This document shows positions 8,833-17,360 of a DNA stretch of 57,654 nt, one piece after another. The stretch is taken from positions 1-57,654 of the forward strand of contig WAKA01000207.1 in the NCBI GenBank assembly GCA_015523565.1. The letters are read 5' to 3'. The translations under genes were made by a program, and so were the position numbers. Origin of the DNA: Candidatus Heimdallarchaeota archaeon. GTDB lineage: Archaea > Asgardarchaeota > Heimdallarchaeia > Heimdallarchaeales > Kariarchaeaceae. The number at the start of each line of letters is the position of its first letter. The stretch's first letter is position 1. The notes under the pieces were generated by a model. The model had not been told where the DNA came from, ran no database searches, and saw only the letters and a program-made list of their open reading frames with translations.

Positions 8833-10131
8833 CTACAATTTTCTGCTATCCAAAAATGCAAAAAATAGCAAAATTGCCAATACCAGCAGATTTGTGGCTA
8901 AAAGAGAATAAATTCCTAAATGGAAAAAATTGCTGGCAAAGGCATCCAATTCTTCGTACCAAAGTAATACAAAGGACGAGCCATTCTTAATAAAAATGAT
9001 TTGTGTAATTGACAATAATGTCCCTATTACTCCATAAAAGAATGCTAAAATGATGAAAATCTGTTTCAAGATCCCGATCTTGAGATTTTTGGGATCGGGT
9101 GCTGAAATCATTTGATCCAACTCTTGAACTATTCTTTCATCTGTTTTGCTGTCTACCTCTTCTTTTTCAACTGTTGTTTCCTTTTGTGTTTCTTGCACTT
9201 GTGCAGAATCATGTCGCTCTAATACCGTTCCTTTATTTATTTCTTCCATATCTTCTACTTTTGCAAGGGTTTGTTGTTTCTCTGATAGTTTTCCAGCATC
9301 AGTTTTTTCTTCTTCCTTGTCTACCTTTTTCACTTCCAATATTCTCTCTTCTTCTGACGTTTCTTTCTCTGATTTTGTTTCTTTTTCCTCTGTCTGTTTT
9401 TTATCCTGGATTTCTTCTATGGGTAATTCCTTCTCTTTTTCTTTTGTCTGGTCTTCAACTTCCGATTTGTGTTCTCCCTTCTGAATACTTTCACTTTCAT
9501 CTTTCTCAACAGCTATCTTTGTGCTTGCTTCATTTAATTGGATTGTACCTTGTTTCTCAATATTTTTGTCATGAGTTTTCTCTTCTGTTTCCTCTTCGAA
9601 ATCCTTCTTTTCATCATGTTCAGTCAGTTCTTCAACCAAATCTTGATCTTTTTCTATAATCCCCTGATTTTCAATCTGTTCTGGAGTATCCCCTTCAATT
9701 GATTCCGTGGTGTCTTTACTACCTTCTTCTCTTGTTTTCTTCTTTTCCTTTTCATCTTTATCTAGTTTTCCTGTTTGAGGTTGTTCTTTACTTTCTTCTG
9801 TTTTATCAAATGCTTGGTCTTCTTGTTTTTGCACTCCTTCTAGTTCTTGTGCTTTCTGTTCTCTATCTTTCGCATTAATCTTTTCAACGGGTTTTTTCTC
9901 ATGATTTGTATTCAGGTGTTTTGATTGTATTTCTAATTCTTCCTGCTTATTTAATTCTGGTTTCTTATCACTCGTTTCACCATCTTTAATTTTTGTTAAC
10001 TCTTTTGTTTCTTCCCCAGTTTTTTCTTCTGTCATTTGTTCTACTTTTTCAAGAACTTCTTTTCCATCAAATTGTTCGTCCTTTTTTTCTGTTTTCTCTG
10101 AATTTCTGTCCTTATGGGGTTCTTCATCCAT
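8833..10131 (-). CDS. long E/K-rich low-complexity protein with C-terminal membrane spans
   Basis: About 340 residues of Glu/Lys/Gln/Thr-rich sequence, almost free of hydrophobics and probably disordered or partly coiled, followed by two C-terminal hydrophobic helices around residues 350-380 and 400-427. No family recognised. The start was set to ATG rather than the TTG one codon earlier; a TATA-like element about 26 bases upstream fits. It is the first gene of the leftward run that continues with the site-2 protease. The mirror-image reading frames on the other strand are artefacts of its composition. Confidence 0.7.
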   Translation of the reverse strand: MDEEPHKDRNSEKTEKKDEQFDGKEVLEKVEQMTEEKTGEETKELTKIKDGETSDKKPELNKQEELEIQSKHLNTNHEKKPVEKINAKDREQKAQELEGVQKQEDQAFDKTEESKEQPQTGKLDKDEKEKKKTREEGSKDTTESIEGDTPEQIENQGIIEKDQDLVEELTEHDEKKDFEEETEEKTHDKNIEKQGTIQLNEASTKIAVEKDESESIQKGEHKSEVEDQTKEKEKELPIEEIQDKKQTEEKETKSEKETSEEERILEVKKVDKEEEKTDAGKLSEKQQTLAKVEDMEEINKGTVLERHDSAQVQETQKETTVEKEEVDSKTDERIVQELDQMISAPDPKNLKIGILKQIFIILAFFYGVIGTLLSITQIIFIKNGSSFVLLWYEELDAFASNFFHLGIYSLLATNLLVLAILLFFAFLDSRKL

Positions 10132-10241
10132 CAAACATCTATCTCTGTTTTACAAAATAAAGGTTACCCGTTGAAATAATTGCATCTGGTCAAATTACAA
10201 TAGCAATAGATACATAAACACGCAAGGTATGGTAAACTTGC

Positions 10242-13468: not shown

Positions 13469-13487
13469 GGTATGTGGATTGTCACAT

Positions 13488-14756
13488 ATGGAATTTTCTT
13501 CTCGTATTCAAGGGTTTCATAAACTATCCCAGTCTGAAAAGATCGATAAAATCAAGGAACTCTGCAATTTGACTGATGCTGATGTTGAAGTTTTACTCGT
13601 TAAGAACCCTGCATTGGATCTGTTTGACAGAATGATTGAAAACAACATTGGGGTTATGCAGGTTCCCATTGGTATTGCAACAAATTTCCGAATAGATGGA
13701 AAAGACCGGCTTGTGACAATGGCTGTTGAAGAGGCAAGTGTTGTGGCCGCCGCTTCCAATGCCGCAAAAATCGCACGCCCCCATGGTGGTTTCTTCACTT
13801 CAACCACTGGATCTTATATGATTGGTCAAATACAAGTGTTGGATGTTATGACTCCTGAATTTGCATCGCAAGAAATTTTGGCAAAAAAAGAAGAGATCCT
13901 CAAGTTGGCTAATGAACAAGATCCAATCTTGGTCAAATATGGCGGCGGTGCAATTGATTTGGAAACACGAATCATTGGTTCTGCTATTGGAGACATGTTG
14001 GTTGTTCACTTAATTGTGAACACATTGGACGCGATGGGTGCAAATGCAGTTAATACAATGGCTGAGGCAGTGGCTCCCAAAATTGAGGAAATTACTGGTG
14101 GAACTGTTCGATTAAGAATCCTTAGCAATCTTGCCGATAGGCGTATTGTCCGTGCCCGTGCTGTTTTTGACAAGGAATTGCTGGGTGGGGATGATGTCGT
14201 TGAAGGAATTATTGAGGCATGGGCATTTGCAGATGCAGATCCATATCGTGCTGCAACACACAACAAGGGGATTATGAACGCAATTTCTGCGATAACCCTT
14301 GCCACAGCAAATGATTGGCGAGCCATTGAGGCTGGTGCTCATGCATATGCCGCTAGGAATGGATACTATGGATCTTTGACTACTTATGAAATTACGGAAG
14401 AAGGTCATCTTGCAGGGACAATTGAATTGCCTTTGGCTTTGGGAACAGTAGGGGGTGCAACGAAAATCCATCCTACAGCCCAAGTCAACTTAAAAATAAT
14501 GGGTGTGACTGGTGCTCAAGATCTCGCATCAATTGTTGCATCAGTCGGATTGGCACAAAACCTTGCCGCACTTCGTGCTTTGGCTACTGAAGGAATCCAA
14601 CGCGGTCATATGAAATTGCATGCCAGAAATCTTGCCGCCCAAGCAGGAGCTAAAGGTGACGAGATTGACAAGGTTTCAAGGAAGATGATTGAAGAAGGCA
14701 AAATCCGTATGGATCGTGCAATCGAAATCCTTGAAGAACTTAGGAAAAGCACTTAA
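13488..14756 (+). CDS. mvaA: class II hydroxymethylglutaryl-CoA reductase
   Basis: Reduces HMG-CoA to mevalonate, the committed step of archaeal isoprenoid lipid synthesis (or runs in reverse in mevalonate users). The sequence matches class II: SSRIQGFHKLS at the N-terminus, VPIGIATNF, EEASVVAAASNAAK with the catalytic Glu, HNKGIMNAI with the catalytic Lys, NDWRAIEAGAHAYA with the catalytic Asp, and HMKLHARNLA with the C-terminal His. Most archaea use class I; class II occurs in Archaeoglobus and Thermoplasmatales. An earlier TTG start (13479) is possible but the TATA-like element fits the ATG. Confidence 0.93.
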   Translation: MEFSSRIQGFHKLSQSEKIDKIKELCNLTDADVEVLLVKNPALDLFDRMIENNIGVMQVPIGIATNFRIDGKDRLVTMAVEEASVVAAASNAAKIARPHGGFFTSTTGSYMIGQIQVLDVMTPEFASQEILAKKEEILKLANEQDPILVKYGGGAIDLETRIIGSAIGDMLVVHLIVNTLDAMGANAVNTMAEAVAPKIEEITGGTVRLRILSNLADRRIVRARAVFDKELLGGDDVVEGIIEAWAFADADPYRAATHNKGIMNAISAITLATANDWRAIEAGAHAYAARNGYYGSLTTYEITEEGHLAGTIELPLALGTVGGATKIHPTAQVNLKIMGVTGAQDLASIVASVGLAQNLAALRALATEGIQRGHMKLHARNLAAQAGAKGDEIDKVSRKMIEEGKIRMDRAIEILEELRKST

Positions 14757-14767
14757 CCAGAATTCAG

Positions 14768-15361
14768 TTAACTAGTTATCATCCTTCCTGATATGAAATA
14801 ACGTTTTGAAGATCCTGCCCGATTATTTACGTATTTTATGAACTTTGCAACGCCATATCTCCTGTGAACAACTGTAAATTGTCCATATTTAATTGGCAAT
14901 TTAAAATACTTGTCAGGAGGTACATAATATGAGATATATCCTCCAAACTGTTCCTGCCATTGTTTTGTGAAATCCAAATAGAATTCAAAAACATTGTCGC
15001 TACGAATGTCGTCATGGATGAGGGTGTAATTTTTCCACCCAATTTGAATAACATGCGACTGTATGTCTACAATATGTTCTCCGATCATTTCTCCAATCAA
15101 GTCTCGTAACTCCAATGAATTAAGAAATCTTTGAATTCTGATAGGTGTCTTTGCCTTAAAAATTGAGTATTTACAGGGATTCCGTTCTCTTACAAATTCT
15201 TGGACTTTTATCTCTTCAAAAAATTGGTTCAAAATTTCTCCTCTAAGGAAATTTTCCATAGAAATTGTTTGTAGCTCTTTTTCATTCAAGAATCCTTGTT
15301 TTATACTTGCTATCGCCTTTTCATCAAAATACACTGGATTGATCATTTCATCAATTTTCAT
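14768..15361 (-). CDS. stand-alone C-terminal domain of an OGFOD1/Tpa1-type hydroxylase
   Basis: This 197-residue protein matches the second, non-catalytic double-stranded beta-helix domain of eukaryotic OGFOD1/Tpa1/Ofd1. It opens with EMINPVYFDEKA, like the INPTYL stretch that starts this domain in human OGFOD1. It contains YTLIHDD, WQEQFGGYISYY and AKFIKYVNNR, matching YTLIHD, EYGGFTSY and LKFVKHINHR. In eukaryotes this domain is fused behind the catalytic domain; here it is separate. The ATG lies inside the last codons of the upstream catalytic gene (11-base overlap), so the two are translationally coupled. An extreme C-terminal part of the eukaryotic domain is missing. Confidence 0.8.
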   Translation of the reverse strand: MKIDEMINPVYFDEKAIASIKQGFLNEKELQTISMENFLRGEILNQFFEEIKVQEFVRERNPCKYSIFKAKTPIRIQRFLNSLELRDLIGEMIGEHIVDIQSHVIQIGWKNYTLIHDDIRSDNVFEFYLDFTKQWQEQFGGYISYYVPPDKYFKLPIKYGQFTVVHRRYGVAKFIKYVNNRAGSSKRYFISGRMITS

Positions 15362-15932
15362 AAAACCACCCTGTTATAGTCGCTCTATACGCTTCACCAA
15401 TTACTTCATCTACCTCATGAAATGAGTTTGGCAACACTTGGAAAAAGACAAATTTGTTGAATTTTGGTCTAATGCTCTTTACAACCTTCGTGGGTCTTCC
15501 ATCTATTGATTCATACAAATTTAAGGATCCCCCCTCTCCCTTTTCAAGATCTGACAGATAGATTATGAATGCCACTTTCCTGCCTGGCAAATTGTCATCA
15601 TGGCATAACAGATAATCTGTATCTGAATACAAATTTACGGTGGCATCAATTTTTTCTCGGCTGAGATTCAGACCTGTTACCTTTTCAATCCATGTGATAA
15701 ATGCTTCTGAGGCAAGGAATTTTTTAAATTCCCGCAATTTTTCTGAAGGAAGCGTTTCAAGGTCATCTGTCTGTAAAAATTGAAACAAATCTGAATCTTT
15801 CTTTTCAAACTCCATTTCTTGTATTTCTTCAATAATTGCAATCAGGAAATCTTCATCAAAAAACTGATCCAGTTCAAGATGTGGAAAAGGTAGACTATTC
15901 GTAAAAGTCTCCTTAAGTTCAGTTAACTTCAT
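15351..15932 (-). CDS. 2-oxoglutarate/Fe(II) prolyl hydroxylase, OGFOD1/Tpa1 catalytic domain
   Basis: Catalytic domain of the family that in eukaryotes hydroxylates a conserved proline of ribosomal protein uS12 and affects translation termination. PFPHLELDQFFDEDF near the start resembles the Tpa1 N-terminus. The iron ligands are His111 and Asp113 (CHDDNLPGR) and His172 (NSFHEV), and the 2-oxoglutarate arginine is Arg183 (YRATITGWF). The reading frame extends to a TTG at 16049, but this ATG has an AATTAATTTT element about 23 bases upstream and starts just before the conserved part; ATGs near 15985 are alternatives. The second OGFOD1 domain is the next, overlapping gene. Confidence 0.82.
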   Translation of the reverse strand: MKLTELKETFTNSLPFPHLELDQFFDEDFLIAIIEEIQEMEFEKKDSDLFQFLQTDDLETLPSEKLREFKKFLASEAFITWIEKVTGLNLSREKIDATVNLYSDTDYLLCHDDNLPGRKVAFIIYLSDLEKGEGGSLNLYESIDGRPTKVVKSIRPKFNKFVFFQVLPNSFHEVDEVIGEAYRATITGWFYEN

Positions 15933-16052
15933 CGGTTGGACGAAGTGTGAATTAATTTTCCCCTCAAACACCGAAAAATCCATCATATGATCAAAATATC
16001 GTGAAAATAAAATTTTATTGATTTGATCGACAAATCCTCTATGAAACAATAA

Positions 16053-16082: not shown

Positions 16083-17360
16083 GTGAGTGGTCAAACCATT
16101 GCAGAAAAGATTTTGTCTGCACATTCGATCGATCGGGAAACTGTATATGCAGGAGATAGGGTGGATGTAAGGCCTGCGTCCATTCTGACAAATGAAATGT
16201 TACCCATGGTTGCAATCCCTAAATTTTTGAGCACAGGTGCTAAACGTGTAAACCAACATTTTGCCGAAAACACTTTGGCAATTCTGGATCATGGTGGCTT
16301 TGGTACAACTGATAAGATGATTAATTTGCATCTTGTCGCAAAGCATTTTGCAAAACAATTCAACATTGACCTTGCGCCAGCAGGTGCAGGCATTTCTCAT
16401 GTTGTTTTCCATGAACGTGGAATGGTGCAAAGTGGTGACCTTGTTTTGGGAAGTGATAGTCATACTGTCAGTCACGGTGCTTTCAATGCTTTTGCCAAAG
16501 GAATTGGGGGCTCGGATCTCGTAGAACTTATGGTCAAGGGAACAACTTGGTTGGATGTGCCTGAAACCATTTCAATTCATGTATCCAATAAACTTAGAGA
16601 AGGTGTATATAGTAAAGACCTTCTTCTTACCATGCTAGGCGAGAAATCTACGGAATGGGGTACTGATCGATGTTTTGAGTATTCTGGAGATGGTATTCTT
16701 GATCTTTCGATTGAAGCACGATTGACTATGAGCAATATGGCTGTAGAAATGGGAGGTGTGGCTGGAATTATGCCATATGATGAGAAATTGAAAAAATACT
16801 TGGACACGGTTCCTGTCCGTCGCCCTCCCAGACCAACTCTTCCTGATGATGATGCCTCATATCATGAAAAATATGAAATCGATGCTTCACAAGTAGTTCC
16901 TGTGGTTGCATGTCCCCATTCCCCAGACAACGTAAAACCCGTCGAAGAGGTGGGCGAGGTAGAATTGGATCAAGTCTTTATTGGTTCTTGTACCAACGCA
17001 AGGATTGAAGACCTTGAGGTGGTTGCCAAGATTTTGAAGGGGAAAAAAGTCAGTGTTGAAACTTTAATCATTCCAGGATCTGCATCTGTAGGACTTGAAG
17101 CTGTAAAACGCGGTTATGTTGAAATCTTCATGGAGGCTGGCGCCACTTGGGCTTATTCCACTTGTGGTGCTTGTTATGGAGGAACCTTGGGGAGAGTTGG
17201 TCCTGGAATGACTGCGATTAGCACCACTAATCGAAATTTCATTGGTCGAATGGGTGGGGACAAGACAAGCAAAACATATCTTGCATCGCCGGCAACCGCA
17301 GCAGCATCTGCAATCGCTGGAAAAATCGTGACTGCTGGATATGGAGGTGCAAAACAATGA
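16083..17360 (+). CDS. leuC: 3-isopropylmalate dehydratase/homoaconitase large subunit
   Basis: Large subunit of a 4Fe-4S hydro-lyase of the aconitase superfamily, isomerising isopropylmalate (leucine synthesis) or a related 2-hydroxy diacid. Motifs include LGSDSHTVSHG, IGSCTNARIEDL with the first cluster cysteine, and STCGACYGGTLG with the other two. At 425 residues it has the length of the archaeal two-subunit type. Start is GTG. Its stop overlaps the ATG of the small-subunit gene (ATGA, four bases), indicating translational coupling. No leuA or leuB is nearby, so the substrate remains open. Confidence 0.9.
   Translation: MSGQTIAEKILSAHSIDRETVYAGDRVDVRPASILTNEMLPMVAIPKFLSTGAKRVNQHFAENTLAILDHGGFGTTDKMINLHLVAKHFAKQFNIDLAPAGAGISHVVFHERGMVQSGDLVLGSDSHTVSHGAFNAFAKGIGGSDLVELMVKGTTWLDVPETISIHVSNKLREGVYSKDLLLTMLGEKSTEWGTDRCFEYSGDGILDLSIEARLTMSNMAVEMGGVAGIMPYDEKLKKYLDTVPVRRPPRPTLPDDDASYHEKYEIDASQVVPVVACPHSPDNVKPVEEVGEVELDQVFIGSCTNARIEDLEVVAKILKGKKVSVETLIIPGSASVGLEAVKRGYVEIFMEAGATWAYSTCGACYGGTLGRVGPGMTAISTTNRNFIGRMGGDKTSKTYLASPATAAASAIAGKIVTAGYGGAKQ

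Follow-up and report, generated by a model that had tools for sequence, protein, structure and literature searches.

A predicted split OGFOD1-type prolyl hydroxylase encoded by two genes in Kariarchaeaceae and DPANN archaea, with ribosomal protein uS12 as its probable target

The locus

The window analysed here is a 57,654-nucleotide stretch of DNA (contig WAKA01000207.1 of assembly GCA_015523565.1) from Candidatus Heimdallarchaeota archaeon, a member of the family Kariarchaeaceae. Two adjoining genes on its minus strand, termed A and B, together correspond to the prolyl hydroxylase OGFOD1. Gene A (15351..15986) encodes a catalytic 2OG/Fe(II) oxygenase subunit of 211 amino acids, counted from the ATG at 15986, and is the counterpart of the N-terminal domain of OGFOD1. 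Gene B (14768..15361) encodes a non-catalytic DSBH subunit of 197 amino acids, starting from the ATG at 15359-15361, and is the counterpart of the C-terminal domain. The TGA stop codon of A (15351-15353, minus strand) lies within the start region of B, and the two minus-strand reading frames overlap by exactly 11 bases (15351..15361), as the first-pass annotation of this DNA had described. Relative to A, B is read in frame +1. The pair is flanked on one side by a gene for HMG-CoA reductase (13479-14756; PF00368), which is its convergent neighbour both here and in genome G007, and on the other by an aconitase-family gene (16083-17360; PF00330). Elsewhere in the window (8833-10134) lies a gene for a very Glu/Lys-rich protein of 433 residues with hydrophobic, membrane-like segments at its end.

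The start of A was originally placed at 15932, which truncates the protein. The ATG at 15986 (or 15983) is preferred because the 18 residues that it adds carry an arm, KINSHFVQP, that lines up with an (I/L)NxxYL arm in the relatives. B begins with the same kind of arm (INPVYFDE), and the break between the two proteins comes after the catalytic fold closes with GWFYEN* and before this arm. It had been suggested that the break coincides with the domain linker, and this position indeed matches that of the linker formed by residues 239-269 of human OGFOD1 (PMC4396695).

A is an OGFOD1-type catalytic domain

Protein A matches the Pfam family PF13661 (5e-27), and when compared with PDB sequences by phmmer its best match is human OGFOD1 (1.2e-34), with yeast Tpa1 at 5e-21. 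A profile built from its relatives matches OGFOD1 at 2.3e-54, while everything beyond OGFOD1 and Tpa1 scores 1.6e-5 or weaker. The AlphaFold2 model of A (pLDDT 93.6) likewise has OGFOD1 and Tpa1 as its top Foldseek matches (from 1.7e-19, TMq 0.86-0.89), with the next PDB families some seven orders of magnitude weaker. The best match outside this group, by sequence and by fold, is Streptomyces PolD (PDB 9blq), which is far weaker (1.6e-5 by profile) and is a single DSBH chain. The single-domain prolyl hydroxylases PHD2/EGLN1, PPHD of Pseudomonas and algal P4H have the catalytic DSBH fold in common with A, but match it much more weakly and are without a partner domain. YcfD, MINA53 and NO66 also act on ribosomal proteins as 2OG oxygenases (PMC4396695), but they form a different subfamily, nearer to JmjC and with other target residues, and are absent from the sequence matches of A in the PDB and profile searches.

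Active-site residues were tallied over 55 A proteins, following the residue numbering of human OGFOD1 (PMC4396695). In the window, the HxD iron-binding motif of A comprises His129 and Asp131 (15594..15602, minus strand), equivalent to human His155 and Asp157; the distal iron ligand is His190 (15417..15419, minus strand), and Arg201 (15384..15386, minus strand) is the residue that binds the C-5 carboxylate of 2OG. All four are present in 55/55 proteins, as is Leu126 (15609..15611, minus strand), the equivalent of human Leu152. This leucine separates prolyl 3-hydroxylases (P3Hs) from P4Hs, which have a tyrosine at the same place (PMC4396695). In human numbering, the invariant positions are H155, D157, H218, R230, L152, R162, W236, L95 and G235; D156 (54 proteins), Q100 (51) and D140 (51) are near-invariant, and L159 (46), K91 (42) and Y169 (42) are kept less strictly. 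The residues of the substrate groove (K91, L95, Q100, D140, D156, L159, R162 and W236) are thus each retained in 42-55 of the 55 proteins, and the groove position Y96 is occupied by Phe in 53 of them.

B is a degenerate copy of the same fold

The first-pass annotation had assigned both proteins to the OGFOD1/Tpa1 family, and for B the assignment hinged on a profile match to the C-terminal domain of OGFOD1. Such a match was found, and Pfam, profile and fold searches bear out the homology of both halves. B matches the Pfam family PF10637 (Ofd1_CTDD) at 2.5e-12, with a score of 47 bits where the cut-off is 27, and its best match among PDB sequences is human OGFOD1 (3.2e-6). The profile of B relatives detects OGFOD1 (2.4e-26), the C-terminal domain (CTD) of Ofd1 (4.6e-8) and Tpa1 (1.2e-6), with no match outside these three up to an E value of 0.1. 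Foldseek searches with the AlphaFold2 model (pLDDT 95.5) again place OGFOD1 first (4.9e-13), with the Ofd1 CTD at 1.6e-12.

The metal site of B has decayed. The first histidine is present in 28/55 B proteins and a histidine at the distal position in none; the distal ligand is replaced, most commonly by lysine, which is the residue found both in the B protein of the window and in the human CTD. A degenerate motif resembling KF[VI]K[YH][VI]N is also common to B and the human CTD. B diverges much faster than A, with about 30% identity within the genus as compared with 50-59%, in parallel with the fast divergence of the CTD between human and yeast.

The archaeal pair therefore resembles human OGFOD1, Tpa1 of S. 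cerevisiae and Ofd1 of S. pombe, the uS12 (RPS23) prolyl hydroxylases, in the order of its two DSBH domains, in the domain boundary and the fold of each half, and in having a first domain with HxD...H, Arg and the P3H leucine and a second domain without a metal site. It differs in being archaeal and in being encoded by two genes with a short overlap, whereas each eukaryotic enzyme is one polypeptide with a linker of 31 to 95 residues.

Two genes rather than one

All of the 56 prokaryotic pairs that were compared consist of two ORFs, and none has an ORF containing both domains, so that the archaeal A/B system represents a split variant and not a standard member of the OGFOD1/Tpa1/Ofd1 subfamily. 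B lies in the +1 frame relative to A in 43 of these pairs, in the +2 frame in ten and in frame in three. The +1 offset is shared by the four other Kariarchaeaceae genomes that carry the genes and is mostly kept across their DPANN relatives, and in the 43 pairs it is accompanied by a short overlap. L072 and L085 are two loci where B, with an ATG of its own, comes after an in-frame stop, while in one DPANN genome (L090) A and B stand about 760 nt apart (1700-2459), with an apparently opposite-strand gene between them, which identifies B as a gene in its own right.

The start of B appears to be served by the coding sequence of A itself. The sequence GGN TGG TTY NATG belongs to both proteins, and the start codon of B usually lies 10 bases past the first base of a conserved glycine codon of A. 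In the window the codons of Gly206-Trp207 read GGGTGG (15366..15371, minus strand), and the ATG of B follows 10 bases after the first G. These codons look like a Shine-Dalgarno (SD)-like site for B. The conserved glycine preceding the tryptophan is encoded by GGG in 29/53 genes as compared with 68/459 other glycine codons (p = 5e-10). The native sequence is also predicted to pair more strongly with the anti-SD sequence than its synonymous recodings do (-9.3 vs -7.7 kcal/mol, p = 5e-7). These p values are indicative, since related genomes were counted as independent and the usual archaeal anti-SD was assumed.

Two other explanations of the break deserve consideration. A sequencing or assembly frameshift within a single fused gene could be entertained because the window derives from a MAG, but the same layout recurs in five independent Kariarchaeal and about 50 DPANN assemblies whose stop codons and overlaps differ, which refutes such an error and upholds the earlier view of A and B as separate genes; its probability is negligible. 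Programmed +1 frameshifting at the overlap, which would yield one fused A-B protein, might seem to be favoured by the 43/56 pairs that retain a +1 offset and overlap briefly. The ATG, however, sits within the codons for the conserved Trp-Phe-His/Tyr-Gly stretch, and the +1 offset is a consequence of that position. Moreover, the offset is not constant: ten pairs have the other offset, and in the three pairs with offset 0 B lies behind a stop codon, in one case 760 nt downstream. The second ORFs have start codons of their own, in addition to the SD-like site. The varied offsets, together with the separated and in-frame-stop cases, exclude frameshifting or readthrough as a general mechanism, and it is very improbable that the proteins are joined in this way. 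The preferred reading is that A and B are translated separately and would be co-expressed as the subunits of one enzyme.

Distribution of the split pair

A search of Asgard genomes for fused and split versions had initially been proposed as a check. That search found A or B in only 5/228 Asgard genomes, all belonging to the Kariarchaeaceae (three species of the genus represented in the window and two of another genus), and the genes are split in 5/5. Given this narrow range, and as these genes nest with DPANN genes, an Asgard framing is misleading. When 84,980 species were scanned for two motifs of A, 18 loci emerged, almost every one of them labelled as DPANN or Kariarchaeal; the genes are split at 18/18, and the overlaps range from about 4 to 47 bases. 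Within the DPANN phylum that contains locus L034, A is present in 46/371 sampled genomes, and the split pair is found in about 50 DPANN genomes overall. B is the next matching ORF after A in nearly all loci; no B was seen at L076, which is at a contig end, or at L102, and L103 retains only a remnant of A. A fused version was found neither in the 228 Asgard genomes nor in the 371 sampled DPANN genomes or the 18 motif-scan loci.

The sole bacterial case is a Buchananbacteria MAG (L042), the one genome with the pair among 287 sampled Patescibacteria. Both of its genes group at high support with those of the DPANN genome G323, so that this pair either was transferred recently or lies on a misbinned contig. 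The uS12 protein of the same genome is of the bacterial type (KKPNSALRK). IMG/VR contained no relatives and INPHARED one weak, partial match; in PLSDB, A had only weak matches, to single-domain 2OG oxygenases, and B had none.

Evolutionary history

The OGFOD1 subfamily has been described as found only in eukaryotes, and Horita et al. (2015; PMC4396695), who so described it, conjectured that the subfamily arose when a single-domain enzyme was duplicated. In the mainly open-access literature searched on archaeal OGFOD1 and Tpa1/Ofd1 and on Asgard or Woesearchaeota prolyl hydroxylases, no title or abstract describes the present system. It is prokaryotic, it has the two duplicated domains in separate genes, and it occurs in one Asgard family and in many DPANN archaea; with it the origin of a modification of the decoding centre becomes testable.

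Phylogenetic trees separate A plus the human N-terminal domain from B plus the human C-terminal domain as two groups at 100/100, and the duplication and division of labour therefore predate the split between the archaeal and eukaryotic forms. The Kariarchaeal pairs form one clade (100/97) that groups with 25 DPANN and DPANN-like pairs (99/91), with human outside. This nesting suggests transfer between the two groups of archaea; its direction, inferred from patchiness only, would have been from DPANN to Kariarchaeaceae. The eukaryotes in these trees are human and yeast only (human alone for B), both on long branches, and a clade of Kariarchaeal and eukaryotic sequences is allowed with A alone (p-AU 0.594) and weakly rejected with A and B combined (p-AU 0.045). 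With the A/B duplication as root, eukaryotes fit inside or outside the archaeal clade, nor do the trees reject the archaea as one clade that excludes the eukaryotes. Direct inheritance of the eukaryotic gene from an Asgard ancestor is not supported by these trees.

The trees do not firmly place human and yeast and accommodate both a fusion and a fission. The two-subunit form may be primitive, having arisen by duplication and loss of the second site in archaea, with a single fusion of the pair in eukaryotes, so that uS12 hydroxylation would be older than eukaryotes; this we put forward tentatively. About equally likely is a derived state, in which a gene that had been fused was divided in an early archaeal host and the pair then spread by transfer. 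One such fission would cover all archaeal cases, given that a single archaeal clade apart from eukaryotes is not rejected, but no fused prokaryotic gene occurs in the sampled genomes, where the two-gene form is the sole prokaryotic form. A fission concerns the origin of the pair and is compatible with a two-subunit mechanism.

Predicted function and substrate

We propose, with a probability of about 0.6, that A and B constitute a translationally coupled two-subunit prolyl 3-hydroxylase of the OGFOD1 type that targets the proline of the KQPNSA loop of uS12. That the two proteins form a working 2OG oxygenase complex is predicted with considerably more assurance. A would supply the full HxD...H iron site, the 2OG-binding arginine and a substrate groove of the P3H type. 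B, a catalytically dead duplicate of the fold of A, would pack on A as the C-terminal domain of OGFOD1 packs on its N-terminal domain, through the minor sheets of both, and would contribute to substrate recognition and stability. B would be made from its own start, and its translation would be linked to that of A by the overlap and by the SD-like GGGTGG in the last conserved codons of A, which would keep the two proteins at similar levels. The predicted reaction is an O2- and 2OG-dependent 3-hydroxylation of the conserved proline, which is Pro62 in human numbering. Such a pair offers a natural two-component system for probing what the dead domain does.

The first-pass annotation had also suggested uS12 prolyl hydroxylation in this archaeon. 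The P3H activity on which that suggestion depends is plausible in view of the active site, the groove and the presence of KQPNSALRK in the uS12 of the same genome, while the hydroxylation itself is a deduction from these features. To our knowledge the target proline of the KQPNSA loop is near-universal in uS12, and the motif is for this reason consistent with the proposed target without discriminating it from others. The iron and 2OG site of A would fit another proline substrate too, and the A/B heterodimer could instead act on another ribosomal protein, a translation factor or a non-ribosomal protein. The evidence for uS12 as substrate is indirect, A and B are patchy although the uS12 proline is present in every genome looked at, and the structural matches of A include PPHD, a bacterial prolyl hydroxylase that acts on EF-Tu, so that this fold also accepts prolines of other proteins. 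Against this, the residues of the OGFOD1 groove, including the P3H-type leucine, are nearly all conserved, and the gap in match strength between OGFOD1/Tpa1 and the next PDB families is wide. A substrate other than uS12 is accordingly judged unlikely, and uS12 probably is the target of A/B.

If uS12 is the target, the distribution of the pair implies that ribosomes of some DPANN archaea would be hydroxylated in an O2-dependent manner. Many members of this group are regarded as anaerobic symbionts. In the second Kariarchaeal genus, sister to that of the window, a gene of the eRF1/Pelota family lies upstream of A on the same strand in both species (L036 2-943; L047 3058-4128), a neighbour fitting a role of A/B in translation, and a PP-loop gene (PF01171, tRNA-thiolation-like) lies downstream of the pair. 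The gene neighbourhood is not conserved across the family, and DPANN loci do not share this translation-flavoured context. Directly downstream of B in one locus (L036 2543-3718) is a gene for a protein without a Pfam match. At another locus (L031 3738-4940) a Peptidase_M50 gene (site-2-protease-like; PF02163, 7.8e-24) lies 12 bases upstream of A. Ofd1 of fission yeast regulates the SREBP Sre1, which makes this neighbourhood curious, but it may be coincidence.
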